64,000 nucleotides of DNA from Streptococcus mitis (GTDB lineage: Bacteria; Bacillota; Bacilli; Lactobacillales; Streptococcaceae). Under the pieces are notes generated by a model. The model was not told the origin of the DNA. It saw only the letters and a program-made list of their open reading frames with translations, and ran no database searches. Positions 48,634 through 64,000 of this stretch are shown one piece after another; positions within the stretch are counted from its first letter, which is position 1, and each line of letters opens with the position of its first letter. The position numbers and the translations under genes were made by a program. The DNA is taken from positions 1,781,501-1,845,500 of the forward strand of contig NZ_CABEHV010000004.1 in the NCBI RefSeq assembly GCF_901542415.1, given 5' to 3'.

Positions 48634-49026
48634 ATGTCACAAGCACAATATGCAGGTACTGGACGTCGTAAAAACGCTGTTGCACGCGTTCGCCTTGTTC
48701 CAGGAACTGGTAAAATCACTGTTAACAAAAAAGATGTTGAAGAGTACATCCCACACGCTGACCTTCGTCTTGTAATCAACCAACCATTCGCAGTTACTTC
48801 AACTGCAGGTTCATACGACGTTTTCGTTAACGTTGTAGGTGGTGGATACGCTGGTCAATCAGGAGCTATCCGTCACGGTATCGCTCGTGCCCTTCTTCAA
48901 GTAGACCCAGACTTCCGCGATTCATTGAAACGCGCAGGACTTCTTACACGTGACTCACGTAAAGTTGAACGTAAGAAACCAGGTCTTAAGAAAGCTCGTA
49001 AAGCTAGCCAGTTCTCAAAACGTTAA
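48634..49026 (+). CDS. rpsI: 30S ribosomal protein S9 (integration target)
   Basis: 130 codons from the ATG after [35 protein letters not shown] at the start and the basic tail [17 protein letters not shown] that reaches the P-site tRNA. Two further copies of its 3' end lie downstream (57490 and 63837): integrative elements enter this 3' end and restore the reading frame. The last codons here use different synonymous bases from those copies, as expected if an element supplied them. Confidence 0.97.
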
Positions 49027-49139: not shown

Positions 49140-49285
49140 ACTTTTTAAGATTGCGATAAGCAATCTCTCCAACAGCCATTGGAATGACATTTGAAGTGTT
49201 GACATAAGTCTTAGTTGTAATAGTATCACTATGGGTTAGAGCTTTATAGATTCCATAGTTTAATCCAGTTTTAGCTATTTTATTT
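49138..49285 (-). pseudogene. Tyrosine integrase C-terminal fragment
   Basis: The minus-strand frame ending at the stop 49138 reads KIAKTGLNYGIYKALTHSD, then TITTKTYVNTSNVIPMAVG, ending EIAYRNLKK. This is the end of a tyrosine recombinase around the nucleophile Tyr (KTYVN). The frame is open only from about 49290 (stop upstream), so the Arg/His box parts and N-terminus are gone. It shows that the left part of element 1 was once integrase-driven. Confidence 0.7.
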
Positions 49286-49399
49286 TCTCCTTTATTTTGT
49301 TATTTTTTGAGTACTAGCTTCTCAGTAAAAACATTGAGAGCAGGTACCACAGAATTTCCATTCAGCGAAGTGTCCGATAAGAAAATAGGATTAACTGCT

Positions 49400-49549
49400 T
49401 CAACAAGAGCATCTTCTGGAAATACTGTTGTAGAAGCTGTTGTAATAACTGTTGTAATAACTGTTGTAATAGCGTGGTGCATTCCCCAATTTTTCGTAGT
49501 AAGTAGTGCCGATAAATTTTGGTAGCATGACAAGTGTTTCTGGGATCAT
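49400..49549 (-). CDS. Small protein with Tyr-Tyr-Asn-Ser repeats
   Basis: 49 codons from the ATG at 49549 with AAAGGAAG upstream (minus strand). The protein starts [20 protein letters not shown] and has four tandem Y-Y/F-N-S units ([17 protein letters not shown]) from a DNA repeat GTTGTAATAACT. The last residues (RRCSC) may be a frameshift product: another frame stays open for 60 further codons. Unrecognised; possibly a degenerate phage-type gene. Longer ORFs on both strands overlap it, so the frame is chosen on the ribosome site alone. Confidence 0.4.
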
Positions 49550-49588: not shown

Positions 49589-49820
49589 CTAGTTGCTTCT
49601 CTCTTGAGTAATAGTGATTAAAAATTTTGCGTTTATACATGCGACTATAGAATTGAATACCACCATGAGCATAGCCATTCCTACGAGCATCTTGAGTAGA
49701 TCTATTTGAGCCTGAGCATAGAGTTTGGCCTGTAGTTTATCAGACTTACTAAACATACCATAGGTGAATTCATAGTTATCATAGAGTCGTTTACATTGTA
49801 GTGCGAAAAAAGTTTGTCAT
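49589..49820 (-). pseudogene. Small membrane protein gene, frameshifted
   Basis: ATG 49820 follows AAAGGAG but the frame stops after nine codons. Skipping one base in the T/C run after codon 5 gives a continuous ~76-residue protein: acidic/basic N-terminus (LYDNYEFTYGMFSKSDKLQ), one hydrophobic helix (LLKMLVGMAMLMVVFNSIVA) and a short tail. Terminator of the upstream RNA lies at 49846-49882. No family recognised. Confidence 0.5.
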
Positions 49821-49845: not shown

Positions 49846-50326
49846 AAAAAAGCTACTAAGAAAAAAGAAGACTTAGTAGCTTGAGAGTGAGTCTATCAAG
49901 GTAGATAGACAGCAGTAAAGAGAAGTTATTTGGTTGAAGGATTCCTCCTTCACGGTGGCAACGTTTAGCAAGGTGCATTGCATGAATTACCCTCTCTTTC
50001 CCAGCCAACCTCAATAGGTAGTCATTATCATACCCATGGGATTCTCTTACACCCTTTGGCGAAGCCAGTTCACTTTACTATTCGGAAAAGTGCGAAAGTC
50101 CGAAATGCGTGGAAGCCCACAAAATGTTTTAAATCTTCACTTCAACCATCAAACAGACTTGACTTTTCTTTCCAAAACGTTTACAATAAAGGTACGAAGT
50201 TTAGTGTAGTTTTGGCAATCAGTCCTTTGGTTGTCAGACGCACTTTTTATTTAATTTTCAAAGATCGTGATTTAGCCTTGAAGATAAGGTTATTATTTTC
50301 AATCGCCATACAACTATAAGTTGTTA
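49846..50326 (-). ncRNA. Candidate structured non-coding transcript, about 480 nt
   Basis: Leftward promoter (TTGACA 50361-50356, 17 bp, TACAAT 50338-50333) and a Rho-independent terminator (AAGCTACTAAG / CTTAGTAGCTT plus T run, 49882-49846) bound 480 nt with no ORF above 36 codons. In minus orientation it folds locally: GAAGGA-GGAA-TCCTTC (GNRA-type loop), GTCTATC/GATAGAC, TTCGGA/TCCGAA, TGGC/GCCA, and a long-range AAAAGTGCG/CGCACTTTT helix. A 20-codon ORF (MAIENNNLIFKAKSRSLKIK) starts at 50310 without a ribosome site. RNA class not recognised. Confidence 0.55.
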
Positions 50327-50361
50327 AATCCATTGTACAACCAACAGTTGTAATTGTCAAG
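50311..50361 (-). promoter_or_regulatory. Leftward promoter with two operators
   Basis: TTGACA-17-TACAAT on the minus strand (50361-50333). Two palindromes with the same arms, ACAAC-N5-GTTGT, lie at 50338-50352 (inside the spacer) and 50311-50325 (at about +1), centres 27 bp apart. Binding would block initiation. The XRE gene immediately to the right is the obvious repressor; its own rightward promoter (TTGTCA at 50355) adjoins the first operator. Confidence 0.75.
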
Positions 50362-50404: not shown

Positions 50405-50746
50405 ATGGATCTTGCGGAACACCTTAAGACCTTGAGAAAACAGGCTAAAATGACCCAAGCCCAAGTCGCAAAAGCTATCGAAATTTCGCAACAAGGATAC
50501 GCTTATTGGGAACAAGGAAAAAAACGTCCAAGTTACGATAATCTCGTGAAGATTGCTAAACTCTTTAATATATCTGTCGATACCTTGGTATCAAATGAAA
50601 CAAATGATGATATTGACTTATCAGAAGTAGAATTGCTCTTCAGAACTACATCAGATGGTATGAGCAATGAAGAAAAAGAAGTCTTCAAACAAGAGTTGCT
50701 TCAGTTTATGAAGGAGCGGAGGAAGGTTTTTGAGGAGGAAAAATAA
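50405..50746 (+). CDS. XRE-family repressor
   Basis: 113 codons. HTH_3 domain at residues 4-58 (LKTLRKQAKMTQAQVAKAIEISQQGYAYWEQGKKRPSYDNLVKIAKLFNISVDTLV), then an acidic linker and a charged C-terminal helix. Ribosome site AAGGGG. Divergent from the operator-bearing leftward promoter, so it probably represses it. Followed 3 bp later by a membrane-protein gene. Confidence 0.88.
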   Translation: MDLAEHLKTLRKQAKMTQAQVAKAIEISQQGYAYWEQGKKRPSYDNLVKIAKLFNISVDTLVSNETNDDIDLSEVELLFRTTSDGMSNEEKEVFKQELLQFMKERRKVFEEEK

Positions 50747-51749: not shown

Positions 51750-52616
51750 ATGGATACACGATACAGCCAAATTAAGGAAGTTGCAAATCGTTATATTTAC
51801 AAGTATATCAAGGAGAATGACTCTTCTCTTCTAGGTTATAACTTTGAAGGATTTTTCAACCATGTGGTTGAGAGTCACAATATCAAGGTTATGGAGCATC
51901 ATTTTTCTAGTAGAAAGATTGAGGGACTGACCTTGATTGATGAGAGTGGTATTTCTTTCTCCTATGAAAAGGAAAATCCGCAAGTAAAACAGAACTTTAC
52001 GAAGTGCCATGAGTTGGGGCATTTTCTGCTACAGCATACTGGCTCTTTCTTTACAGAGCTAAAGGATGAATCTGACTCTATCTTTGAGAGCGAAGCAAAT
52101 CTCTTTTCTGCATTTGTGCTTATGCCAAGCATTGTTTTGCTGTCAAAGATATTTTATAGGCATGATAGTTTTGCACGAGTGATGAAAGACTTAAAGGTTT
52201 CAGCTGAAGCCTTGGTCTATCGCTTGAGATACTTATTCAGTAATGAAACGACTCATTCATTAGATAAGGTTAATCATGCAATTCAAGACTATAAAAATGG
52301 TCAATTAGATAGAATTGTGGATATGTTTAGTTTGTTGAAGTCTTCTATTATCGCAGAGTACCAGCAAGTCATCATAGATATGTTGGCCAAAGTTTATCAT
52401 TTGCTAACTAGAGACGGCTATCTGTCAGACCGACAAATCTTTGAATTGAAGGACAAAGCGTTTAGACAGACCTTGGAAGATGAAAAATCAGATATTTCTT
52501 GTGGTCAACTTTTTGATTATGGTAAAGTCATTTACTTTGCCTGGGAAAAGGATAGATTAACAGAGAGACAAGCTATTAGTAACGCAAAGACACAGTTATT
52601 GTTAGAAAGGACATGA
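51750..52616 (+). CDS. ImmA/IrrE-family metallopeptidase
   Basis: 288 codons. Zinc-protease motif KCHELGHFLLQHTG (about residues 85-98) followed by FESEANLFSAFVLMP with the third zinc ligand Glu. Family members cut a partner repressor to switch on mobile elements after DNA damage. The partner is most likely the S24/XRE protein encoded 1 bp downstream. The C-terminal half (about 150-288) is helical and unrecognised. AAGGAGG ribosome site. Confidence 0.88.
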   Translation: MDTRYSQIKEVANRYIYKYIKENDSSLLGYNFEGFFNHVVESHNIKVMEHHFSSRKIEGLTLIDESGISFSYEKENPQVKQNFTKCHELGHFLLQHTGSFFTELKDESDSIFESEANLFSAFVLMPSIVLLSKIFYRHDSFARVMKDLKVSAEALVYRLRYLFSNETTHSLDKVNHAIQDYKNGQLDRIVDMFSLLKSSIIAEYQQVIIDMLAKVYHLLTRDGYLSDRQIFELKDKAFRQTLEDEKSDISCGQLFDYGKVIYFAWEKDRLTERQAISNAKTQLLLERT

Positions 52617-52617
52617 G

Positions 52618-53292
52618 ATGTTCAATTGTACAAAATTAAAACAAAAACGTGAAGAGTTGGGGATGAAACAAAGCGAGATTGCACGACTTCTTGACATTAA
52701 TCGCTCTTCTTATTTCTCTTGGGAAAATAGCAGGGCGGTCCCAAACAAAGCCAATTTGAAAAAGATTGCTGAGATTTTAGGAGTGACTGAGGAGTTCTTC
52801 TATGAGGAAGAAATTGCTATGCTTTATAAGCAACTAAATTCTATCAATCAGACCAAGGCTATGAATTATGTTAAAGACTTAGTAGATAAGCAAGCTAATA
52901 TTATTGCTATGCATACCTTCCCTTATCGTGTCTACGAGAGTCTATCAGCTGGTAGTGGTGCCACAGTCTATGATGATAAGAGTTTTGATACGGTTTGCTT
53001 TGATAAGGAACTAGCTCATGATTTTGCTTCCTGGATTTCAGGGGATTCCATGGAGCCTACCTATCATAACGGATCCGTTGCCCTTATCCGAGAGACTGGT
53101 TTTGATTATGATGGGGCAGTCTATGCGGTAGTGTGGAACTCTCAGACCTTTATTAAGAAAGTTTACCGTGAGGAAGAAGGGTTACGCCTAGTTTCCATTA
53201 ACAAGGATTATAAGGACATCCATATTCCCTACGATGAAAATCCTCGTATTGTGGGCAAAATCGTAGGAGCCTTTACACCTTTGGAGGGCTGA
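52618..53292 (+). CDS. CI-like repressor with XRE and S24 (LexA-type) domains
   Basis: 224 codons. N-terminal helix-turn-helix (LKQKREELGMKQSEIARLLDINRSSYFSWENSRAVPNKANLKKIAEILGV) and C-terminal S24 self-cleaving domain with Ser in SGDSMEPTYHNGS (about residue 142) and Lys in FIKKVY (about 180). An SOS-sensitive repressor. Encoded with an ImmA-type protease and, originally, upstream of a UmuC-like gene now reduced to a fragment, so it resembles the UmuD/UmuC-type cassettes of Tn5252-like elements. Confidence 0.9.
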   Translation: MFNCTKLKQKREELGMKQSEIARLLDINRSSYFSWENSRAVPNKANLKKIAEILGVTEEFFYEEEIAMLYKQLNSINQTKAMNYVKDLVDKQANIIAMHTFPYRVYESLSAGSGATVYDDKSFDTVCFDKELAHDFASWISGDSMEPTYHNGSVALIRETGFDYDGAVYAVVWNSQTFIKKVYREEEGLRLVSINKDYKDIHIPYDENPRIVGKIVGAFTPLEG

Positions 53293-53563: not shown

Positions 53564-55489
53564 ATGAAACAAACCACCTTATTTTCATTTGAAGAAGAGT
53601 ATGATACTATTGATAGTATCGCTAAAAAAATGGATTTTAATATAGAGACACCAGGTTGGCCTGATAAGTTCGGTCAAAAATTAAGGAAATGGACTCAGGA
53701 AAATACGAAAGATAAAATTAGAACCCTGAGTTTATTTTCTGGAGCGGGGGGGCTTGACATAGGCTTTAATGATGCAGGTTTTGAAATAGTTGAATCGGTA
53801 GAAGTAGAAAAAGAATTTTGCAAGACTCTTGAGATAAATAGTGGATCATCAAAGACTTTTCCTGAGGCTAAAGTGAATTGTATTGATATTAGAAAATTTA
53901 CAGGAGATAACTTAGGAAAAATTGATTTCATTATTGGAGGTCCTCCATGTCAAACGTTTAGTGCTGCTGGAAGAAGGGCCAGCGGAGTGTTGGGTACGAC
54001 TGATGAAAGAGGTACATTATTTGAAGAATATGTCAGATTGTTAAAAAAGCTTTCTCCAAAAGGTTTTTTATTTGAAAACGTCTATGGAATTATAGGTGCC
54101 AGAGGTGGTGAGGATTGGAAAGGAATACAAAAGGCGTTTTCTGATGTTGGATATCACCTTTATTTTCGTATCTTGGATGCGGCTGATTATGGAGTTCCTC
54201 AACATAGAGAGCGTTTAATTATTATTGGATTAAAAGAGGGGGAGTTTAGTTTCCCTCGCCCAACTCATGGACCTGACTCAATAGAAGGAAGAGAGTTTTA
54301 CAATGCTTCAACTGCAATAAGGGGCGTAAAAAGTAATGAGAATATTGTAGAGAATCAGCTTGGCGGAAAATATGGCTATCTTTTAAATGATATCCCGCCA
54401 GGATTAAATTACAGTTTCTATACTGAAGAGATGGGACATCCTAATCCAATTTTTGCTTGGAGATCTAAGTTCTCTGATTTTCTATATAAAGCTGATCCAA
54501 TGACACCAACCAGAACAATAAAAGCTTCTGGTGGTGCATATACAGGACCATTGCATTGGGAAAATAGGTTTTTCTTTTACGAAGAGTATAAAAGATTACA
54601 AACGTTTCCTGATGATTATGAAATAAGTGGTAGTAAGAAAATTGCAGTTAAACAAATAGGAAATTCGGTCCCACCGCAGTTAGCTAGAATGTTAGCAATT
54701 GCCGTTAGAGAGCAGGTTTTTGGAACTTCATTTCCTTTTAAACTTAGTACTTTGGATAGAAATGAAACATTAAATTTTAGAAAACGGAAAAGGCAACTTA
54801 CCCGAATATACAAAGAAAAAGCAAGGGCCGCTATTGAATCTTTAGATAAATCAATAGTGATAAAGCCAGAATCACGTTCTTACTATGCTTCGATTAATAA
54901 TGTGTTTGATTTTAAAGAATGTGAAGAAGAAGCTCTTTTTCATATTGAAGTAATCTGGGAAGATAAGTTAATTTTTATCATAACAGAAGTTAAAAAGAAA
55001 AATTCTGAAAAAATTATTGAAATAGAAGTTAGTTCCGAAAAAGTTGGTTGGAATAAAAATATTGGAGGGATTGTTCTAGATATTAGGTCATCAGATCCAA
55101 TGGCATATACAGTTGCTTGGAAAGCTTTTGAGGCTGAATTAATCAAGAATTCAATAAAGGCTGACTTGGTTCAATTGAATGGCTATTATCAATATCGTCC
55201 CAAGCTTTCATTTGACGTAAAGTTACATAGCAAAAGTAAACTGCTAAATATTATTCAAAGTGTCTTAGTTGGAGAATATACATCAAAAAATATTACAACA
55301 GATGTTCTGGCAGAGGCTTGGAATATTCGAAAAGATGAGGTTAGAAAATACGCAGAACTTTTAAAAGAGATTGGATACGAGATTAGAAATAGTAATACCA
55401 ACCCACAAATAAAACAGGATGAATGGCTGATTCCGTATTCATTTCCGACATTAACTCCACTTAGTGTACAATTATGGAAAAAATTATAG
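53564..55489 (+). CDS. DNA cytosine-5 methyltransferase (type II R-M), enlarged
   Basis: 641 codons, AAAGGG ribosome site. C5-methylase motifs in order: I LSLFSGAGGLDIGF (about 55-68), IV GGPPCQTFSAAG with catalytic Cys129, VI FENVYG, VIII QHRERLIIIGL, and X KQIGNSVPPQLARML (about 360-375). The catalytic domain ends near 380; about 260 further residues are unusual for this family and contain a possible winged helix (TTDVLAEAWNIRKDEVRKYAELL). Endonuclease gene follows 9 bp later. Codon and base use are far more AT-rich than the core genes: acquired. Confidence 0.95.
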   Translation: MKQTTLFSFEEEYDTIDSIAKKMDFNIETPGWPDKFGQKLRKWTQENTKDKIRTLSLFSGAGGLDIGFNDAGFEIVESVEVEKEFCKTLEINSGSSKTFPEAKVNCIDIRKFTGDNLGKIDFIIGGPPCQTFSAAGRRASGVLGTTDERGTLFEEYVRLLKKLSPKGFLFENVYGIIGARGGEDWKGIQKAFSDVGYHLYFRILDAADYGVPQHRERLIIIGLKEGEFSFPRPTHGPDSIEGREFYNASTAIRGVKSNENIVENQLGGKYGYLLNDIPPGLNYSFYTEEMGHPNPIFAWRSKFSDFLYKADPMTPTRTIKASGGAYTGPLHWENRFFFYEEYKRLQTFPDDYEISGSKKIAVKQIGNSVPPQLARMLAIAVREQVFGTSFPFKLSTLDRNETLNFRKRKRQLTRIYKEKARAAIESLDKSIVIKPESRSYYASINNVFDFKECEEEALFHIEVIWEDKLIFIITEVKKKNSEKIIEIEVSSEKVGWNKNIGGIVLDIRSSDPMAYTVAWKAFEAELIKNSIKADLVQLNGYYQYRPKLSFDVKLHSKSKLLNIIQSVLVGEYTSKNITTDVLAEAWNIRKDEVRKYAELLKEIGYEIRNSNTNPQIKQDEWLIPYSFPTLTPLSVQLWKKL

Positions 55490-55498
55490 AGGTTAAAT

Positions 55499-56785
55499 AT
55501 GGCGCATAAAAATGAAACACATATTGATATTTTTAATAATAGATATGAGTTTTATCCAAAATCTTCAACAAAAATTACGTTTAAGCAAGGAAAGCAAAGC
55601 AAAGAAGCTAGGTTACGGTTTAAAGAAATTTCAGATACACTAAAAGCAGATTATCTTAAAAATCGACTATCCAGAATCAATTTAGAAAATTTTTCAAAAT
55701 TAGAGGATAGTGAAAAAAATGCCTTAACTCAATTAGTTGACGGAATTACAAGCGAGGTAGGTAGAGCGCTAGTAGGACTGACTTTTTTGCAATTAACAAT
55801 TAAAAGTATTAAGCCTATTCAAAATATCAGATTACACAAGGGTAATAATCGAAAAGACAGTTTTTCATGGGAAGAAGGAATCTCTATGAGAACCCTGGAT
55901 AAAAATTTTACTACTCCGTTCTTAAGAGAAATGGGTTTTCTAAATTTGAACCGAGATGGAGTTTTTATGACAAGAAGTTTGTCTGAAAATTACCCTTATA
56001 CTCCTCTTTATAAAGCACAAATGAAGGGCCCGTTTAAAGAGTGGATTACGATTGTAAATTTTATTGAAGAAAAACCCGAAAAATCATCTGTTGCTTTAGA
56101 TTATCTGATGAGTTTACTGTCGAATAGGTCTGTAAAGTATAATGAACTAGTTGAAAAAACTTGTCAACTAGCAGAAAATTTTAAGGATAGAACATTCGAA
56201 GATTATAAGGAGTTTTTAGAAAAATTTTTTAATCAAACAAATTATTCGGCGAGAGCTTTTGAAGTAGTTCTTCATGCTTTATATCAGGTACTGGATTCAA
56301 ACAATTTTCTTTCTGATCTGGATTTAAAACCGATGACGCAGATGAGGTCAGCAAATAAAAAACATGGTAATGTCGGTGATATAGAATTAGCTGAAAACGA
56401 GGAAATAATTGAGGCTTGGGATGCTAAGTTTGGGAAGCCGTATCTAAGAGATGAGTTAGAAGAATTAAATGATAAGCTAAATGAAAATAATTCAGTTAAG
56501 ATTGCTGGATTTGTGTCAAATGTTGAGTTAGAATTGAGAGATGTTGAATCAAGACGGTCTGAGATTGAATTTAATAGCGATACGAAGATTTATTTATATA
56601 CTTTTGAAGAGTGGGTACAATATGTCATCAAGGATCCGCTGGAAGAATTACCAAGAATAGGATATGAGTGGGTAAATGCAGTTGTAGAAACATTTTCCAG
56701 AAAACGAATTGGCATTGCACCAATCGATGAGCCATGTTTAGATTGGTTAGAAGATTTGGCTAAAAGACTAGAAGAGGCTAGCTAA
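55499..56785 (+). CDS. Type II restriction endonuclease (putative)
   Basis: 428 codons, directly downstream of the methyltransferase. A PD-(D/E)xK-type site is likely at GDIEL ... EAWDAKFGK (about residues 293-312). No known specificity family recognised; assignment rests mainly on gene context and this motif. It should cut DNA not methylated by the partner. Followed by a small third gene whose start is unclear. Confidence 0.75.
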   Translation: MAHKNETHIDIFNNRYEFYPKSSTKITFKQGKQSKEARLRFKEISDTLKADYLKNRLSRINLENFSKLEDSEKNALTQLVDGITSEVGRALVGLTFLQLTIKSIKPIQNIRLHKGNNRKDSFSWEEGISMRTLDKNFTTPFLREMGFLNLNRDGVFMTRSLSENYPYTPLYKAQMKGPFKEWITIVNFIEEKPEKSSVALDYLMSLLSNRSVKYNELVEKTCQLAENFKDRTFEDYKEFLEKFFNQTNYSARAFEVVLHALYQVLDSNNFLSDLDLKPMTQMRSANKKHGNVGDIELAENEEIIEAWDAKFGKPYLRDELEELNDKLNENNSVKIAGFVSNVELELRDVESRRSEIEFNSDTKIYLYTFEEWVQYVIKDPLEELPRIGYEWVNAVVETFSRKRIGIAPIDEPCLDWLEDLAKRLEEAS

Positions 56786-57240: not shown

Positions 57241-57489
57241 AATATAGTGATAGCAACTGTGATTGCTGAATTTATCCTATTATTTTAGTCTCTACCTTTT
57301 TTTCGCAGGCAGTTATAAAGTCTATCAGAATAAGCTTTGTAAGAGTATAAGTTAATTTTTACAGAACTAAATTATTCCCCTATTTAGAATCTATTAATTC
57401 ATATTTTATGAAATTAATTAATAGATATTGTTCTTAAAATCCTTGATATTGTGCTGTTTTTAACCCAACTGAAATCTATACTTTCCAAA
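57241..57489. other. Gene-free AT-rich end of element 1
   Basis: 249 bp with stops in all frames and no clear gene. It contains the self-complementary TTAATTCATATTTTATGAAATTAA near 57395-57420, a possible terminator or binding site. Confidence 0.4.
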
Positions 57490-57538
57490 CCAGGTCTTAA
57501 GAAAGCTCGTAAAGCATCACAATTTAGTAAACGTTAAT
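57490..57538 (+). repeat. Second rpsI 3' end: att site shared by elements 1 and 2
   Basis: 48 bp encoding [15 protein letters not shown] and a stop, identical in protein to the end of rpsI; the last 18 bp (AATTTAGTAAACGTTAAT, 57521-57538) recur exactly at 63837-63854. It is therefore the right end of element 1 and the left att of element 2. Confidence 0.9.
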
Positions 57539-57593
57539 CAATACCTTATTATACCAACGTTTGTGGCACCTTTTTGGTGTCAGTTGGTGTTAA

Positions 57594-58643
57594 TTATATT
57601 GATAAGTCGTTTAAGAGATTTAAAGCATCAGCATCTTGCTGGTGCTTTTTTTCTGGCATCAGTTCAAGATAATAGTTCTGTGTAGTCAGAATTGAATTGT
57701 GTCCGAGTCTGCGAGAAATATAATCTAGGCTAATATCTTTTGAAAAAAGGAAAGAAGCGTGAGTGTCACGCAAACCATGAAAAGTTGTTTTGCTCAGGTC
57801 TAGTTTCTTCAAAAGTTTTTGGAGTTGGCTTGCTTGTCTGAATCCGTTCCAGTCGAAGATATAGTTCTCTTTTTTATTTGCTAGAGACATTAGAGCGAAG
57901 TAGATATCTTGGTTGATAGAAATATCCCGTTTTGAGTGTTTTGTTTTTAGTTGAGTATCATCGCTAATAGGACTGATTGACCTGCGTATATTGATACCAT
58001 ACTCAAAAATATCTTCTTTCTTCAATCCAAGTAGTTCACCTCGCCTTGCACCAGTTTCTAAGGCAAGAAGTACAAGAATATTGAACTCGTCCTCTTCTTG
58101 GTGGTCGAGGCAATATTTTCTTAGTTCCCTAAACTCAGTTACTGATAGAGGGACATTACGCTTAGGTTGCTCTTGACCTCTTGCTTTTAAGAGTGAACCA
58201 AAGTCATTTGCAATCAATCCTTTAGCGTATGCGTATTTGAGTGAACCTCTGATTTTTAAAACAAGTTCTTTGGTTGTCTTTTTGGAGTGAGTTTCAGCGT
58301 ATTTATCAAGTTTTTTCTGCATGACTAAATCATCCAAGTGTTTTAGTCGCATTCCCTCAAACAGTTCGTCCACGATTACAAGAGTTCGCTTATAATTGAC
58401 GAAAGTAGCTTCACGAACCTCATTCTGTTTTACAGAGTTAACCCAGTTACGATAAAAGTCAGTAAATAGGGTAGAGCGTTCAGCAATATCTTTCCCTCGT
58501 CCTTTGTCGAGTTCCATTTCAAGAGCCCATAATTCAGCGTCTTGTTTGTTAGAAAATGTTTTGGTTTCTCGTTTGTATTGTCCTTTCTTGTAGAGTGATA
58601 CAGTTGCACGGAAAGAATTTCCACGTTTCGTAATAGTTGCCAT
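57594..58643 (-). CDS. int: Tyrosine integrase of element 2
   Basis: 349 codons. AP2-like arm-binding domain (ITKRGNSFRATVSLYKKGQYKRETKTF), SAM-like core-binding domain (about 60-150), and catalytic domain with Arg in ETGARRGELLGL, the H-x-x-R box HGLRDTHASFL, the second His in RRLGHNSILTTQNYY, and the Tyr nucleophile. The stop lies 55 bp from the att core, inside the arm repeats. Catalyses site-specific insertion in rpsI. Confidence 0.95.
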   Translation of the reverse strand: MATITKRGNSFRATVSLYKKGQYKRETKTFSNKQDAELWALEMELDKGRGKDIAERSTLFTDFYRNWVNSVKQNEVREATFVNYKRTLVIVDELFEGMRLKHLDDLVMQKKLDKYAETHSKKTTKELVLKIRGSLKYAYAKGLIANDFGSLLKARGQEQPKRNVPLSVTEFRELRKYCLDHQEEDEFNILVLLALETGARRGELLGLKKEDIFEYGINIRRSISPISDDTQLKTKHSKRDISINQDIYFALMSLANKKENYIFDWNGFRQASQLQKLLKKLDLSKTTFHGLRDTHASFLFSKDISLDYISRRLGHNSILTTQNYYLELMPEKKHQQDADALNLLNDLSI

Positions 58644-58735
58644 CTTATCAGCCTTTCTATATGAAAAATGATTGATAAAATAGACTAGTCACATATAGTG
58701 TATATGAAAAATCTCATTTTATCAATCGTTATCCG

Positions 58736-58915
58736 TTAATCACAGTGCTCTTCAATGAATCTTATAAGTTTGGATTTCAGGTAGCGTTCCTGCTTACCAA
58801 TCATAAAACATTGAAAATCAGGGTGATTTCTGATGTACTTGTCAAAAGATTTTGGGTCAATGCCAAGTAGTTCAGAAGCTTGTTGTCTTGTTAATAGTAA
58901 TGGCTGATTAATCAT
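58736..58915 (-). CDS. Excisionase-like helix-turn-helix protein
   Basis: 59 codons, ATG at 58915 behind GAGGTAAAT. MINQPLLLTRQQASELLGID followed by PKSFDKYIRNHPDF is an excisionase/MerR-like winged helix with the usual L-T-R-x-x-A start. Placed between initiator and integrase genes, the common xis position. Acts in element excision (inferred). Confidence 0.8.
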   Translation of the reverse strand: MINQPLLLTRQQASELLGIDPKSFDKYIRNHPDFQCFMIGKQERYLKSKLIRFIEEHCD

Positions 58916-58948
58916 AATTTACCTCTTTCTATGATATAATGAGAGGTA

Positions 58949-59593
58949 TCAGGAGATACCATCTTCTGTGCTATCCTCATCAGACATGCTCGGTAAAGTT
59001 TGCTCTGGTGAGGTTTTTGCTTTGTTTTGGGGATTGTGACGTCTTGAGTCTAAAAATTTTGTGAAAAAATAAGTCCGCTCAATGATTAGACCGAGTAGAG
59101 AATTATCATTAAATCTAGCATACCGTACTAAATCTTCAAACTCTGTAAAACCATTTTCAGTAATAACATCAATAACTGTTTCTAAAAATAGACCCGAATT
59201 GTGCTCAATCAGAAATTTATCCAATTCAAAGCCACAACCACTTTCTATTTCTTCGATATTATAAAGTGTCTTATCAGGATTTTCTGCGTGTGTGAAATAA
59301 TCATACATACCCTTTGGGGACATGACTATTTCAACGTGAGCAGGTGTATTCAACTTTTTTGTTAGGAGTTCGGAAACTTGAGAATAGCTTTTAAGTGATT
59401 CAAAAAACAATGCTCCGTGCTTATGAGCCTTTTTGAACTCTCCAGTTTCCTTGTCGATATCTTTATCATGCCAAGGGCTCAAGACAAATGGGATGTGCAT
59501 TTCTTCAAGAATATCAAGATAGTTTTCAGGAGCACTATCTTGATAAAGCAAGAATGCCCACTTATTTGAACGTTTCTCTTTAGATTTTGCCAT
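58949..59593 (-). CDS. rep: pMV158-type rolling-circle initiator (Rep_2 family), probable relaxase
   Basis: 214 codons. WAFLLYQDSAPENYLDILEE, LSPWHDKDIDK, the metal-binding His pair in KAHKHGALFF and the catalytic Tyr region KGMYDYFTHAENPDKTLY match RepB-type initiators of pMV158 plasmids. It would nick the TACTACG/AC hairpin about 50 bp upstream of its own start. In streptococcal elements such initiators also act as mobilisation relaxases. The C-terminal third is Ser/Glu-rich. Confidence 0.92.
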   Translation of the reverse strand: MAKSKEKRSNKWAFLLYQDSAPENYLDILEEMHIPFVLSPWHDKDIDKETGEFKKAHKHGALFFESLKSYSQVSELLTKKLNTPAHVEIVMSPKGMYDYFTHAENPDKTLYNIEEIESGCGFELDKFLIEHNSGLFLETVIDVITENGFTEFEDLVRYARFNDNSLLGLIIERTYFFTKFLDSRRHNPQNKAKTSPEQTLPSMSDEDSTEDGIS

Positions 59594-59610
59594 TTCAGCT
59601 TCTTCCTTTT

Positions 59611-59658
59611 TTGATTATTGATTATTGATTCATTGGGGGTCGTAGTAACCCCAATGAA
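59611..59658 (-). other. Double-strand origin / oriT: iterons and nick hairpin
   Basis: Minus-strand reading: 10-bp arms TTCATTGGGG (59658-59649) and CCCCAATGAA (59638-59629) expose the loop TTACTACGAC. It carries the pMV158-family nick sequence TACTACG/AC, cut expected between 59641 and 59640. Next to it are three 7-bp direct repeats (TTGATTA, TTGATTA, TTGATTC on the plus strand, 59611-59631), likely initiator-binding iterons. Confidence 0.9.
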
Positions 59659-59667
59659 TCTTCTCTA

Positions 59668-59831
59668 TGGGGCTTTGCCCCAAACCCTAGCCTCTCCTGC
59701 CCGATGATAGCACACACTAAGAACGCTTGAGGACTGGCAAGGGACGGGGTAGTATTTTTCGGCTTCGTTACGCTTTCGCTTTAGGCTTTGCTACACTACG
59801 CTGAAAAATCTCCACCCCTCAAAGCCCTTGC
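59668..59831. other. Second structured origin region (sso or transfer region candidate)
   Basis: A tight hairpin (TGGGGC/GCCCCA, 59668-59682) and a large imperfect inverted repeat: GCAAGGG, GGGGT, ATTTTTCGGC on the left (59737-59763) with GCTGAAAAAT, ACCCC, CCCTTGC on the right (59800-59831). The 338-bp interval holds no gene. It resembles the single-strand origins of rolling-circle plasmids in plan; no conserved motif was proven. Confidence 0.55.
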
Positions 59832-59931
59832 AAGACCTCATTTTCCTACTGATTGGTAAGCGCCGACACTATACCGATGAGATAGCTCAAAAAGGGCTAC
59901 TGTCGTCAAAACAAGCATAGCAGGAAAACCG

Positions 59932-60654
59932 CTATTCATACCTCGAGAAAAGCTCTTGAATTCGTTGTTCCAATATTTGCCGATTCTTAATTGGGATAGT
60001 TCGAAATATTTTTACAGGCTCCCCCTCTATTTGAAAATATCCATATCCTCTAGGTTTGATGATAACCTCATCTTTTTCCATATCGGGGAAAAGTAATTGT
60101 CTATTGTTGGTCGCATTCAAGAAGCTAGTTGATAAACTAATGACACAATTAAAGTTATATCGACCAGGTAAGTCTGCCATTAAAAAACGTTGACTGGATA
60201 AGATTAACCTAAAACCTAGACTTCTTCCCATGCTATTCATCATCAACATTTTAGACAATATTTCTTTATGTTTTTTCTTGTCAGTTTGTTCAAGATAGGC
60301 TAGAAATGCCTGCCATTCATCAAAAATGAGATATAGATTGCGGTCGTTTGCTTCTGCTTTACGCAATCTGTCTTCAAAGCGTTTATAAATGCTTTCGAAC
60401 ATATCAAGACATTCAAAGCCACGTGCTACATGATTTCCTGTCATAGTGAACAAATCATCATCAGCCTTAAAATCCATAAAACAAGCTTCAGCAGTCTTAT
60501 CGTGGGTTGCAATAAGACCTAATAATCTATGTAGAAAGGTAGATTTCCCTGAACCTGATGGACCTGCAATTATCCAAGCAAAATATCGGTTAATGTCAAT
60601 AGAGAAGGGGGTTGGTTGCCCCCTATTATTGACTTCCCAAACATTATGAATCAC
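59932..60654 (-). CDS. FtsK/TcpA-type DNA-translocating ATPase (coupling protein)
   Basis: 240 codons. Walker [14 protein letters not shown] (about 31-43), Walker B LYLIFDEWQAFL and a sensor ILSSQR. FtsK/HerA superfamily, as in TcpA-type coupling proteins that deliver the relaxase-DNA complex to a mating pore. Short: no N-terminal membrane helices. The upstream gene (gap 3 bp) encodes a two-helix membrane protein, which could supply the anchor. Confidence 0.85.
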   Translation of the reverse strand: MIHNVWEVNNRGQPTPFSIDINRYFAWIIAGPSGSGKSTFLHRLLGLIATHDKTAEACFMDFKADDDLFTMTGNHVARGFECLDMFESIYKRFEDRLRKAEANDRNLYLIFDEWQAFLAYLEQTDKKKHKEILSKMLMMNSMGRSLGFRLILSSQRFLMADLPGRYNFNCVISLSTSFLNATNNRQLLFPDMEKDEVIIKPRGYGYFQIEGEPVKIFRTIPIKNRQILEQRIQELFSRYE

Positions 60655-60657
60655 GTT

Positions 60658-61209
60658 CTAAAAGTCCTCCTCCGTATGCTGGTTTTGACTTAGCATTTCA
60701 TTAGCAGAAATCAACCGAACTTTAATAGCAAGGAACGGGTCGTGTTTTGCAATACTAACAACACAATCAACGGAGCCGTTAGACATCATTTTGACAGTTT
60801 GCCTTGCTTTTATTTCGAAATCTGCTAGTTCTTGAGCGCTAACTGATTTTTCAAGATGAATGTAGAAGATACCTTGAGTAATATCAGGGAATTCTACACC
60901 TTGAGTAAATTGAAGGGTAGCGATTGGAAGTTCGTTAACACCTATTTCAGTTAGCCAATGATAGATGTTAGCATACAGAGGGTTTGCAGGTACTCGCTTG
61001 CTCTGTTTATAGCTATTCCACATCATAGAGAATGCTTCTCCCTCTGTAAATACCCCGATTAACAGTAACCCACCTAAGATAAAAGGTAAAATCCAAGATA
61101 GTAGCTTATAAAGGGCAAATACAGATACTATAATAGCTAAAGCGATAAGTAGTTGGCAGTACCATTTTAGAGAAGTGATTTTTTCTAGTATTTGTTTAAT
61201 TTGTTTCAT
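60658..61209 (-). CDS. Membrane-anchored accessory protein of the transfer module
   Basis: 183 codons. Two adjacent hydrophobic segments (CQLLIALAIIVSVFALYKLL and WILPFILGGLLLIGVF, about 17-55), then a soluble domain of about 120 residues. Coupled to the ATPase gene. It looks like the membrane half normally fused to TcpA; otherwise unrecognised. AAGGGGAAAC ribosome site. Confidence 0.7.
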   Translation of the reverse strand: MKQIKQILEKITSLKWYCQLLIALAIIVSVFALYKLLSWILPFILGGLLLIGVFTEGEAFSMMWNSYKQSKRVPANPLYANIYHWLTEIGVNELPIATLQFTQGVEFPDITQGIFYIHLEKSVSAQELADFEIKARQTVKMMSNGSVDCVVSIAKHDPFLAIKVRLISANEMLSQNQHTEEDF

Positions 61210-61219
61210 AAGTTTCCCC

Positions 61220-61600
61220 TTAAATTACTGAAATATCTGATAGTTCGAGGACAAGTGACAAACCGATAGGTTGCTTGAACTTGTCGAAGACAAAGGCAAC
61301 CTCATACTCTGAGAAGGTAAGTTCTTTACCGATTAGAGGAGTTAAGTCTTCTCCTCTATATCCCTTTAATTTGACCTTAAAGGTTGGGCAATAATGTTCT
61401 TGTCCGATACTTTCGAACTTTTGGAACAGTGTAGGGTCAACAGCTGTTAAACTTGCGTAAGGGAATTCATTTTCTTTTCCCTCATTTATTACACCAATTG
61501 TATAGTCAACTGTTTGAATGGATTTAGGAACAGTTGTTTCCCTCGTGATTTGTTTAGCGAAATCTTTAGAAGAATCGCTGACTCCGATTGATAATGCCAT
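61220..61600 (-). CDS. DUF961-like conjugation-associated protein
   Basis: 126 codons, soluble. The pattern GVINEGKENEFPYASLTAVDPTLFQKFESIGQEH ... GLSLVLELSDISVI is reminiscent of DUF961 proteins encoded at the start of Tn916-like transfer modules. First gene of the leftward transfer operon (61600 to 59932). Function unknown; family call moderate. Confidence 0.55.
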   Translation of the reverse strand: MALSIGVSDSSKDFAKQITRETTVPKSIQTVDYTIGVINEGKENEFPYASLTAVDPTLFQKFESIGQEHYCPTFKVKLKGYRGEDLTPLIGKELTFSEYEVAFVFDKFKQPIGLSLVLELSDISVI

Positions 61601-61770
61601 TTGGTTTTACCTTTGCCTTTCTGAGGAGATTTCCGCCTAATCGTTACCTCAAACATATGTAATAGGACGGTCTATGTATCTTTATGAATTTATTATCTCA
61701 AAATAAGTAAGTCAAAAAATCACACTTCAAAAAAATAAAATAAAAAAAGACAGATTTTTTTCTGTCTCTA
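61601..61770 (-). promoter_or_regulatory. Spacer with terminator and probable promoter of the transfer operon
   Basis: AGACAGA/TCTGTCT (61748-61767) followed on the minus strand by a T run is a terminator for the gene at 61771. The remaining 130 bp should hold the promoter for the transfer operon; no clear consensus was found. Confidence 0.55.
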
Positions 61771-62373
61771 TTATCTTATTGGCTTTGCAATCTTTAAAGC
61801 TTCTTTATAAAATTTTTCTTTAAAATCCTTTTTAGTTATTGATTTACCCGAATTGTAATATGCCAAATTAATTACTGAATTCATAAAGTGACTCTGCAAC
61901 TTCTTATTATTATAGCCTAAGTCAGATTTAATAGAGTCAATTAAAATTTTTAAGAATTTTTCACTTGTGACTGTATTATAGACAAATTCATCATTGATTT
62001 TATCTAAAGATAAGAGCTTTTCAATAAAACTACTAGAATAGGTTGTTCCATTTTTCTTTCTTGGAAAACCTATTGAATCTTTATCAAAATCTGAGAGTGT
62101 TTTATATATATTTTCATCTAATAGTTTTCTCTTTTTTCTTGACATACTTTTTTCTTGCTCATAATGTAAGTAATTGGAAAATTCATAATTGCTAATATAG
62201 AGCAACACTCTCCGAATTTTGTGCAAGTCCGATAAATATTGAAATTCAGATTGACTCAATGGATTGTTTACCATATATTTCTTATTATCAACCTCGATAA
62301 TTATACCAGACATAGTAAAATATGAAGAAAGTAGTTTACGTTTTGTAGAGTATAAACTGTTATATTTTTTCAT
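61771..62373 (-). CDS. Hypothetical cargo protein, 200 aa
   Basis: 200 codons, very Lys/Tyr/Ser-rich, predicted soluble and mostly helical; ATG at 62373 behind AGGAGG. No domain recognised. Flanked by terminators on both sides (61748-61767 and 62450-62478), so monocistronic. Its AT-rich coding differs from the transfer genes, consistent with exchangeable cargo. Defence, toxin or immunity function is possible but there is no motif to support it. Confidence 0.65.
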   Translation of the reverse strand: MKKYNSLYSTKRKLLSSYFTMSGIIIEVDNKKYMVNNPLSQSEFQYLSDLHKIRRVLLYISNYEFSNYLHYEQEKSMSRKKRKLLDENIYKTLSDFDKDSIGFPRKKNGTTYSSSFIEKLLSLDKINDEFVYNTVTSEKFLKILIDSIKSDLGYNNKKLQSHFMNSVINLAYYNSGKSITKKDFKEKFYKEALKIAKPIR

Positions 62374-62449
62374 ATAAAAATCCTCCTAAAGGTATAATAT
62401 CAAAAAATTTCTTTGAATAACTCACACTTTTAAATAAAAAATATAAAAA

Positions 62450-62478
62450 AGCAACTCTATAAATTAGAATTGCTATAA
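62450..62478 (-). terminator. Terminator after the 62.5-63.2 kb gene pair
   Basis: AGCAATTCT and AGAGTTGCT (minus strand) pair over AATTTAT, followed by TTTTTTATATTTTTTA. Confidence 0.7.
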
Positions 62479-62919
62479 TTAATGAGCTATTTTTATAACT
62501 TTGCCATCAAAATCAGCTACTACATTAAGAAACATATTTTTATAGGAGTTGCTCCATTTTTCTTCTGGTGTACCTTTTTCTATTTTACGATACCTATCAA
62601 GATAAATGTAATCTGTAAAATCGTTATAATAGGTTTCAAAATATTCATAGGTATTTCCTTTATATTCTATTGTGTTTTTAAAATCTTTTCTGGTTAACTC
62701 TTCTAATATATGGTTGCCATTTTTATCATCCAAAGTAATGGATTCTTTGTATTCGAAATCTACATTGTGTAGAGTCACTATCTCTCCTTTTTTGTAAGTA
62801 TGATTTTTTGAAAAGAAACCGCTATTACTTAATAAAATTATTACTAACAGGAGAGTGGTAAGGATAGCTCCTAAAATTATACCGATGGGGAAAAGTGGCT
62901 TTTCTCTAATTATTATCAT
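62479..62919 (-). CDS. Membrane-anchored protein, unknown
   Basis: 146 codons. One N-terminal helix (PIGIILGAILTTLLLVIILL, about 11-30), then an extracytoplasmic domain rich in Lys, Tyr and Asp with no Cys. Overlaps the preceding gene by 14 bp, so co-expressed with it under the XRE-controlled promoter. No family recognised. Confidence 0.65.
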   Translation of the reverse strand: MIIIREKPLFPIGIILGAILTTLLLVIILLSNSGFFSKNHTYKKGEIVTLHNVDFEYKESITLDDKNGNHILEELTRKDFKNTIEYKGNTYEYFETYYNDFTDYIYLDRYRKIEKGTPEEKWSNSYKNMFLNVVADFDGKVIKIAH

Positions 62920-63166
62920 GGTTTTTCTGCTCTCTATTTTTTAGAAACTCTATTAGGTATTTTATAAGATAGAAACCTAGAGTTGCAACTAGGACAAATC
63001 CAAGCAACCATAGGGCGATTGTGAGTAATCCTGATAATAACGATATAATACCACTTATAATCGAATCTCTGAATAAGTAGACTATTACTAGTGGGACTAT
63101 AACTGCAAAACATCCACAACCAGCACATCCTGGGTCATCTGCGACTTCTTGAATAATTAAAGCCAT
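62906..63166 (-). CDS. Small membrane protein with Cys-Gly cluster
   Basis: 86 codons. Begins MALIIQEVADDPGCAGCGCF, a Cys-rich leader, followed by three hydrophobic segments (about 19-33, 36-45 and 48-72) and a charged tail. First gene of the leftward pair behind a promoter with an operator-like repeat. The CAGCGC cluster is unusual; metal binding or lantibiotic-like modification is speculation. No family recognised. Confidence 0.65.
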   Translation of the reverse strand: MALIIQEVADDPGCAGCGCFAVIVPLVIVYLFRDSIISGIISLLSGLLTIALWLLGFVLVATLGFYLIKYLIEFLKNREQKNHDNN

Positions 63167-63190
63167 CTAAATTACACCTCCTTTTTTAAT

Positions 63191-63244
63191 ATTTTATCAC
63201 GAAATTATTATATTGTAAACATTATATTTAAAATGAATACAATA
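63191..63244. promoter_or_regulatory. Divergent promoter region with operator
   Basis: Leftward promoter on the minus strand: TTTACA (63219-63214), 17 bp, TAAAAT (63196-63191). An inverted repeat TATTGTA (63211-63217) and TACAATA (63238-63244), extended by CATT/AATG inside, overlaps its -35. Probably bound by the XRE protein encoded at 63303. Confidence 0.65.
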
Positions 63245-63302
63245 AAGAATATATCTTTTTGATAATTATTTATACAATAGTTAAAAGAAAAGGAAATCTT
63301 TT

Positions 63303-63626
63303 ATGATGAAAAAAATATCTATCGGGTTACAAATTAAAAGTTATCGTATGAAAATGAAACTCACTCAACAGGAGCTTGCTGAAAGAAGCGAATTGAGCCT
63401 TCCCTTTATTAATCTTGTTGAAAATGATAAACGAAATTTATCTGTTGAGACTTTGATAAAAATACTTAATGCTTTAAAGATTTCACCTTCAGAATTTTTC
63501 CTCCCCTTTTCTGAAGAATTTAGCCCAGATTTATCAGAATTAGTATTTCATATACAGTCTAACAGGTATCCAGATAAGTTTATTAATTTATTTAAAGAAA
63601 TTCTAGAATTATCGGATTTAGATTAG
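63303..63626 (+). CDS. XRE-family regulator of element 2
   Basis: 107 codons, AAAGGAAATC ribosome site. HTH_3 domain at residues 7-62 (LQIKSYRMKMKLTQQELAERSELSLPFINLVENDKRNLSVETLIKILNALKISPSEFF), then a short helical tail. Divergent from the cargo gene pair; likely represses it and itself through the inverted repeat between them. Confidence 0.88.
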   Translation: MMKKISIGLQIKSYRMKMKLTQQELAERSELSLPFINLVENDKRNLSVETLIKILNALKISPSEFFLPFSEEFSPDLSELVFHIQSNRYPDKFINLFKEILELSDLD

Positions 63627-63836
63627 TTTGGTTTAGCTTCTAAAATTTTTAGGTATGACAATAAAATAATCTACCTCAAGATGTGAGATAGATGACTAGT
63701 CTATTTTTGGGTGTTAATTGGTGTCAATTTTATCCAAATGAATGGGTTGTAGTACAATTTCATGGGAGTTTCAAATCGTAAGATGTTGATATAAAGGGAT
63801 TTGTAAGGATTTAGTATTATTAGTTTTTAATAGGAA

Positions 63837-63854
63837 AATTTAGTAAACGTTAAT
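63837..63854 (+). repeat. Right att site of element 2 (third rpsI 3' end)
   Basis: AATTTAGTAAACGTTAAT, identical to 57521-57538. Only the last five rpsI codons (FSKR, stop) remain here, followed by flanking DNA. Confidence 0.9.
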
Positions 63855-63876
63855 TCGAAAGAATTACTATACTTAC

Positions 63877-63906
63877 AAAGAGCACCTTTCGGGGTGTTCT
63901 TTTTTG
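63877..63906 (+). terminator. Terminator beyond the last att site
   Basis: GAGCACC and GGGTGTTC pair over TTTCG, followed by TTTTTTG. It may be the original rpsI terminator, displaced by 15 kb of insertions. The last ~95 bases of the window hold no recognisable gene. Confidence 0.6.
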
Positions 63907-64000
63907 TACTTTCTTGCTAAATTGGTGCAATTGATACAGTTGTTGCGACTTTAGTCGCTTGCAAATATGACTGCAACCGGACAAGGCCAGTTGGCTCAAA

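Follow-up and report, generated by a model that had tools for sequence, protein, structure and literature searches.

A conserved boxA-bearing leader RNA of streptococcal conjugation operons, orphaned in a decayed element at rpsI

Results

The locus and its decayed element

In the window (the whole 64,000-nt stretch of Streptococcus mitis DNA that was analysed), a 51-nt attachment repeat at the 3' end of rpsI (48976..49026, plus strand) recurs with 82% identity at 57487..57537 (plus strand), and its presence at both borders identifies the 8.5 kb in between as a decayed element. Searching 14 proteins of the intact-element region against the window gave matches to rpsI (with its 3' end repeated at 57487), the 37 C-terminal residues of the integrase (amino acids 369-405; 49141..49251, minus strand), two pieces of a 98-aa operon gene (49303..49549, minus strand) and the HTH repressors. 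What survives of the element is the pair of attachment sites, the regulatory genes, the leader described below and a gene for a cytosine methyltransferase; decayed elements of this sort have been called CIMEs. At 53564-56785 a Cytosine-5 DNA methyltransferase is followed by a 428-aa protein with no Pfam match, probably a restriction-modification pair of this element. A second element abuts at 57538-64000, with an integrase (57594-58643), a Rep_OBD protein (58949-59593) and an ATPase (59932-60654), all on the minus strand, and represents tandem accretion at the rpsI site.

The leader RNA, about 480 nt long, occupies 49846..50325 on the minus strand, its start being set 7 nt past the -10 box. 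Its promoter, TTGACA-17-TACAAT (50332..50360, minus strand), matches the consensus at 11 of 12 positions and lies where the mapped Pcr promoter of ICESt1 has its counterpart (PMC3234194). Two operators of the form ACAAC-N5-GTTGT are present, operator 1 (ACAACTGTTGGTTGT; 50337..50351, minus strand) in the promoter spacer and operator 2 (ACAACTTATAGTTGT; 50310..50324, minus strand) at +1, just as the first-pass annotation of this DNA had described. The repressor gene that it placed back to back with the transcript encodes, by domain search, an HTH_3 protein resembling arp2/ImmR (50405..50746, plus strand). It is followed by a 295-aa protein, a Peptidase_M78 protein resembling orfQ/ImmA (51750..52616, plus strand) and a cI-type, arp1-like repressor with a Peptidase_S24 domain (52618..53292, plus strand). 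An arp2-like repressor, an M78 protease and an S24 cI beside the leader are the regulatory set expected of ICESt1/ICESt3-type elements.

An intrinsic terminator (49846..49881, minus strand) separates the leader from the operon position, with stem arms at 49881-49872 and 49860-49851 and a U tract running to 49846, in keeping with the strong terminator proposed at the end of the transcript. Its loop exceeds the limit of 8 in our pattern scan, which left it unlisted; the same scan listed the homologous terminator of an intact element. Among 30 close relatives, a terminator closes the leader in 27 by pattern and in two more by eye.

Beyond the terminator lies a degraded copy of the first small operon ORF (49600..49820, end approximate, minus strand), with its ATG at 49820 and a run of six T at 49811-49806. 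This first gene has a good ribosome-binding site and ATG both in the window (49820-49806, minus strand) and in L001-L020 and L050, and the T run (T6 in 19 of these 21 loci, T7 in two) puts a conserved frame of about 80 aa out of phase; the T6 form meets a stop nine codons past the ATG. Homologues in L025, L031, L032 and L034 lack a long T run and encode a protein of this kind in phase. The run is a candidate for programmed transcriptional slippage or frameshifting.

Relatives and distribution

When the leader was searched by blastn against 197 Streptococcus genomes, matches were found in 62 of them, of which 36 places in 35 genomes scored at least 120 bits, the others being short. A divergent HTH repressor adjoins the leader in all 25 close loci (L001-L025). 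Within the 1.5-kb flank, the 98-aa operon gene is present in 21 of these loci (all but L001, L003, L012 and L021) and a gene of 150-156 aa in 19 (L006 and L008 also lack it); neither the 98-aa nor the 151-aa protein has a Pfam match. The intact element L173 reads, from rpsI, integrase (Phage_integrase), an HTH_17 gene, an AAA_10 protein, a Rep_trans relaxase, an FtsK protein, small genes, terminator, leader and repressor, with further genes on either side of the AAA_10 protein; we take the AAA_10 protein to be VirB4-like and the HTH_17 gene to be excisionase-like. In the intact relatives this RNA forms the 5' leader of an ICESt1/ICESt3-type conjugation operon, and it precedes a terminator that fronts conjugation genes on the same strand. 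These genes are deleted in the window, where the copy is an orphan promoter-leader-terminator relic. The first-pass reading of a regulatory RNA of a mobile element was right about the RNA and missed that it is a conjugation-operon leader, orphaned here by loss of the operon.

Operator type tracks the recognition helix of the adjoining repressor across relatives. Of 49 loci compared, the promoter palindrome and the repressor helix could both be read by script in 33. In these, SQQxY is paired with the half-site ACAAC (8/8), KQPNY with ATACT (4/4), (G/V)QSSY with ATCGC (4/4), (S/T)QQSY with ACATC (3/3), SQPAY with ATAAC (9/13) and SQPSY with ATAGT (one locus). The SQPAY exceptions are L008, L009 and L012, where the script picked another or a shifted palindrome, and L046, which reads ATAAG; in L006 and L029 the palindrome scored is operator 2. 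Mutual information between half-site and helix is 1.58, a value reached in 0 of 5000 shuffles and one to which shared ancestry contributes.

A covariance model, R1, built from 20 leaders also detects leaders beyond the training set: L040 (E 1.1e-11), L036, L038 and L044-L048 (E 8e-10 to 9e-7), L139 (E 2e-8) and L109 (E 6e-8). The genes downstream of divergent leaders vary, those of L037 and L043 being small and conserved as in the close family and those of L038 and L044-L047 being other than the close-family ones. A core pattern returned 45 records, 38 from Streptococcus and seven from elsewhere; of these seven only L127, a Dorea MAG, scores well with R1 (208 bits), and since its contig is only 4.4 kb long misbinning is possible. 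An order-wide R1 search with stricter filters matched 13 of 295 genomes, all of them Streptococcus (one of 74 genera), which speaks against a wide taxonomic spread. A plasmid or phage RNA is likewise rejected, because blastn of the leader matched none of 72,556 plasmid and 50,697 phage records and the one viral contig with the core pattern has no R1 match.

A conserved structure absent from Rfam

The leader strand folds at -119.1 kcal/mol (z -2.42), and 0 of 100 dinucleotide shuffles were as stable. Open reading frames of at least 80 aa overlap the leader on the opposite strand in 12 of the 25 close loci, too few to count as conserved. With no conserved ORF in these 25 loci a protein gene is ruled out; the stretch had been described as lacking real ORFs, and an intact protein gene in its homologues, named as grounds for abandoning the RNA interpretation, was looked for there and not found. 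The class of the RNA had gone unrecognised, and a comparison with Rfam, including ROOL and GOLLD, had been proposed. In our covariance-model search no Rfam family reached its gathering cut-off, which rules out these classes and the other Rfam ones; at E 5 nothing matched on the leader strand, and the best sub-threshold match was Chlorobi-RRM on the opposite strand (E 0.07).

For the analysis of covariation we used an alignment, A1, of 27 of the 30 close leaders (from L001-L025, L031-L034 and L050). It omits L009, L021 and L024, in which the terminator pattern failed; the truncated L026-L030 and the degraded L035 lie outside the set. On A1, a structure of 88 pairs has 97.4% of its cells able to pair, and two-sided changes occur at 26 pairs, compared with 9.9 +/- 2.0 in shuffles (0 of 500 as many), a control that overstates significance for related sequences. 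The safer control, in which the structure is slid along the alignment, gave at most 14 such pairs, although it flatters the structure because this was partly derived by RNAalifold from the same alignment. The compensatory changes that the first-pass annotation had made decisive are thus present in 27 leaders, and it was right in describing a structured RNA that belongs to a mobile element and is under repressor control. We conclude that the RNA is real, conserved and absent from Rfam, and that it is a leader and not a free-standing gene.

The structural elements, all on the minus strand, begin with two helices, P1 (GUGCGU at 50238..50243 with ACGCAU at 50105..50110) and P2 (CAACCA at 50228..50233 with UGGUUG at 50143..50148). 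They are followed by an H-type pseudoknot (50071..50104) and then AACUGG; helix 1 of the pseudoknot is UUCGGA/UCCGAA (50104-50099 / 50086-50081) and helix 2 is CACUUU/AAAGUG (50092-50087 / 50076-50071). A hairpin at 50046..50064 shows compensatory changes, with G-U in the window where other aligned leaders have G-C, and the hairpin AAGGAGGAAUCCUU (49937..49950) has two-sided changes in all four aligned pairs. Elsewhere, too, a G-U pair in some leaders is a G-C pair in others (for example in 20 and 7 of 27 leaders at columns 291-381). In the window copy, two substitutions (A1 columns 297 and 300) break pairs of the helix 296-340 that the other 26 leaders keep, which fits a relic no longer under selection.

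The pseudoknot is also present in divergent leaders, built from different sequences: CCAGCU/AGCUGG with CCUUGUG/CACAAGG or CAUAAGG, UCGGCU/AGCCGG with CCUAAUG/CAUUGGG, AGGUU/AACCU with CUAGUU/AACUAG, and AGGU/ACCU with CUUCUUU/AAAGAAG. Scoring covered 14 of 16 chosen leaders (L047 and L048 were left out): in 12 of them no more than 18 of 300 shuffles equalled the real sequence, while L038 (31/300) and L042 (62/300) are weak. The scoring favours real sequences, in that the best anchor was taken where a leader offered two or three, against one per shuffle, and the anchor of L038 was set by hand. The P1 strand ACGCAY adjoins the pseudoknot in divergent leaders L037, L041, L042 and L043; the 6-nt test does not discriminate in the other eight. 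In L036, L040 and L048, several hundred extra bases apparently lie between boxA/P2 and the pseudoknot region.

A 9-bp long-range helix, AAAAGUGCG/CGCACUUUU (A1 columns 25-34 with 195-203), had also been proposed. It is present and invariant in the 27 relatives, and because of this invariance it is neither supported nor refuted within A1. It competes with P1 (GUGCGU/ACGCAY) and the H-type pseudoknot, both of them invariant or nearly so in A1. Its full complement was found in 0 of 12 divergent leaders, so that it is ruled out as the general fold, being excluded there by the recurring pseudoknot.

A ribosomal-type boxA

Conservation of the leader starts at a boxA, GATCTTTGAAAATTAAATA (50248..50266, minus strand): among 24 leaders, mean pairwise identity is 0.53 from operator to boxA, 0.87 in boxA and 0.86 beyond. 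In the same genome the rRNA leaders carry GACCTTTGAAAACTGAACA and the 16S-23S spacers GCACATTGAAAATTGAATA, and the window boxA is an exact match to the joint pattern, CWTTGAAAAYTRAAYA, that it forms with this host rRNA boxA. The joint pattern has 11 matches in the 2.16-Mb genome and none when reversed, with 0.03 expected by chance per window. The 11 sites are four rRNA leaders, four rRNA spacers, the canT region of a Tn916-type element (where boxA lies 5' of xis), the window leader and one site beside a RepA_N gene. This last boxA (C4:907991; L073, 1500-1520, minus strand) lies between the RepA_N gene and a 104-aa ORF, and R1 scores only the boxA there; the site may belong to a boxA leader of a third kind.

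Part of the family carries only a loose form of the motif. Among the 30 close leaders, CWTTGAAAAYTRAAYA is matched exactly in six, with one mismatch in 17 (ten of which read TTGACAATTAAATA), with two in four and with four or five in L032-L034; among 12 divergent leaders the figures are four exact, four with one mismatch, one with two and three with three. Counted at places found with a motif of boxA plus GTGCGTC, 23 of 30 close and 8 of 12 divergent leaders are within one mismatch, a level reached by 0.2% and 0% of the respective shuffled leaders; about 1% reach two mismatches. The window copy is among the better matches in the family.

Across the 197 genomes of the genus, TTGAAAAYTRAATAAAA has 47 matches and none reversed. 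Thirty of these sites were inspected; 22 lie beside a Tn916-type xis, one in an rRNA leader and seven in leaders of the window family (five recognised by profile and two by R1, six of the seven places being already in the blastn set). A longer form of boxA had 23 matches in 295 genomes of the order, all 23 with Tn916 sequence after boxA and 21 with xis in the fetched stretch.

In rRNA antitermination boxA binds NusB-S10, and its complex is best known to act against Rho-dependent and not intrinsic termination (PMC5725501, PMC12691694). The published consensus, GYTCTTTAANA (PMC5725501), is gammaproteobacterial; in our alignment its freely varying position is apparently the A-or-C position of the streptococcal motif. 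Our literature search found no paper linking boxA to integrative and conjugative elements, and none linking boxA to Tn916 among the matches listed. As read from the sequence, what is new here is that the conserved part of a conjugation-operon leader opens with a ribosomal-type boxA.

Comparison with known leaders and antiterminators

The closest analogue is canT of Tn916, a cis-acting, orientation-specific, processive antiterminator RNA of about 450 nt (PMC11658703). Like the leader, canT is a non-coding RNA of about this length that lies promoter-proximal to conjugation genes and is separated from them by a terminator, and in our analysis it also begins at a boxA, GTTCTTTGAAAACTGAATAAAAG; the word "boxA" has no occurrences in the searched text of that paper. 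The bodies of the two RNAs differ. Nhmmer of the leader body against canT gave E 0.6 or worse, and R1 matched only 38-54 nt round the canT boxA (E 0.003-0.03, little better than the E 0.08 of an rRNA leader locus). Since neither the profile nor the covariance model gives a significant match beyond boxA, homology of the bodies is not detectable. A likeness between the S3 mutation site of canT, TGATAATGATACTCC, and TATGATAATGACTACC of the leader was discarded as well, since by our estimate it is about what chance gives for two 450-nt RNAs and it is missing in L031, L032 and L034. The canT region contains the Rfam pemK RNA, which the window leader does not. In the Tn916-type element of the same genome (L064, 1770-1870, minus strand) the canT region overlaps a pemK RNA lying before xis (55 bits, cut-off 34.8), and the pemK motif may be part of the antiterminator. 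Published coordinates place the start of the active 452-bp fragment of canT 6 nt inside boxA, so that canT may do without a complete boxA. Finally, canT sits between orf8 and xis and has the transfer genes in front of it only once the element has excised (PMC11658703), whereas the window-type leader stands directly before its operon under repressor control. Similar to canT in location, size and boxA but built on a different body, the leader is best read as an analogue and not a member of the canT family.

Compared through its published description, the Pcr leader of ICESt1/ICESt3 (arp2/orfN region) resembles the window in place, promoter type and regulatory trio. A single 14.6-kb mRNA that starts at Pcr covers the conjugation and recombination genes of these elements, and 5' ends were mapped in ICESt3 about 100 nt inside the leader (PMC3234194). 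What that paper describes in its account of the region is one stem-loop and not a conserved structured RNA; S. infantis ATCC 700779, a relative that it lists, holds a window-type leader (L122). Depletion of ImmR strongly induces the TnSmu1 region between SMU_217c and immR, whose product the authors could not identify (PMC10233336); this 217-218 transcript, induced on loss of ImmR, lies like the leader between repressor gene and transfer genes, in its case immR and those of TnSmu1. The oriT of TnSmu1 occurs letter for letter in one of 284 genomes, where a leader of this superfamily lies about 6 kb upstream beside an HTH repressor. From this other genome with the identical oriT, we infer that the TnSmu1 intergenic transcript is a leader of this kind.

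The leader boxA is like that of ribosomal RNA in sequence and unlike it in standing in a repressed mobile-element operon with a pseudoknotted body attached. The antiterminator RNAs EAR (eps) and HK022 put are functional analogies only, the leader strand having no Rfam match at E 5.

Discussion

We think it fairly probable that the RNA is a cis-acting antitermination leader of the ICESt1/ICESt3-type conjugation and excision operon that recruits host Nus factors. This reading builds on the position of the leader, its terminator, the conserved structure, the boxA-like motif and the match of operator to repressor; Nus recruitment, antitermination and processivity are proposed by analogy. The adjacent HTH repressor, bound to both operators, would keep the leader silent. 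Once repression is lifted (by DNA damage in ICESt3 and TnSmu1, as published), RNA polymerase would make the leader, and boxA at about +60 to +78 would recruit NusB-S10 and other Nus factors as in rRNA operons. The pseudoknotted body would then fix a terminator-resistant elongation complex in cis, able to read through the terminator after the leader and along the long transfer operon. Transcripts without the leader would stop at the terminator, leaving the element insulated. The 14.6-kb Pcr mRNA argues for such a step, since something must carry polymerase past the terminator that closes the leader. Processivity would have little to act on, however, as no second strong terminator was seen on the operon strand of the one intact element scanned (16 terminator-like sites, 14.2 in shuffles). 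Also against antitermination are the strict boxA in only six of 30 close leaders and the looseness of the motif in part of the family; boxA complexes, moreover, appear chiefly to resist Rho, and the body seems to lack homology with canT.

The same terminator, directly downstream, and two folds that draw on common strands and are mutually exclusive, in the window as in the close family, could instead make the leader a conditional attenuator, in which a signal shifting the balance between the 9-bp helix and P1 with the pseudoknot would open or close the terminator and leave polymerase without lasting change. The divergent leaders, none of which has the full 9-bp complement, argue that a switch between these folds is not general, and the consensus fold, the only one considered in this respect, shows no second partner for the terminator stem. 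We consider an attenuator rather unlikely.

An RNA bounded by a terminator might also be a free small RNA, acting in trans on host mRNAs or a co-resident element, with downstream expression as leakage. The 5' ends inside the leader of ICESt1/3 (PMC3234194), which in ICESt3 could reflect processing into a separate RNA, and the strong induction of the TnSmu1 intergenic region (PMC10233336) are consistent with this, as is the survival of the leader in the decayed element. The operon genes that accompany it in 21 of the 25 close loci speak for a role in cis, and the two pair-breaking substitutions in the operon-free window copy are those expected of a relic, so that a trans-acting RNA seems improbable.

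An ordinary long 5' UTR serving stability or ribosome access, with boxA there by chance, would account for the rarity of strict boxA matches among close leaders. The start codon lies past a terminator, though, and chance is hard to reconcile with the expectation per window, the 11 genomic matches against none reversed, and the excess over shuffles of close leaders within one mismatch; we hold this very improbable. We give almost no weight to a single-strand DNA structure such as a single-strand origin: such origins are folded non-coding DNA and these elements replicate by rolling circle (Rep_trans relaxase), but a promoter, a terminator and a boxA are meaningful only if RNA is the product, and the alternation of G-U and G-C pairs also favours RNA.

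If the antitermination reading is true, it explains what the strongly induced, ImmR-controlled intergenic region of TnSmu1 produces, and how a 14.6-kb transfer mRNA passes a terminator at its own start. The leader adds to the known RNAs a family absent from Rfam, and boxA, unnamed in the searched text of the canT paper (PMC11658703), is a feature that it has in common with canT, which suggests a testable NusB/S10 route for antitermination in conjugative elements. More tentatively, and at somewhat less than an even chance, unrelated conjugative families (Tn916, ICESt3/TnSmu1 and perhaps RepA_N-bearing elements) may each have adopted the host ribosomal boxA as the entry to an antitermination RNA, the streptococcal body being a new pseudoknotted RNA family. 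Transfer operons would then run on an rRNA-type, Nus-modified polymerase, and conjugation would depend on a supply of Nus factors that is itself linked to growth. A boxA-bearing leader suggests that these elements borrow the rRNA antitermination machinery of their host to switch on their transfer genes.
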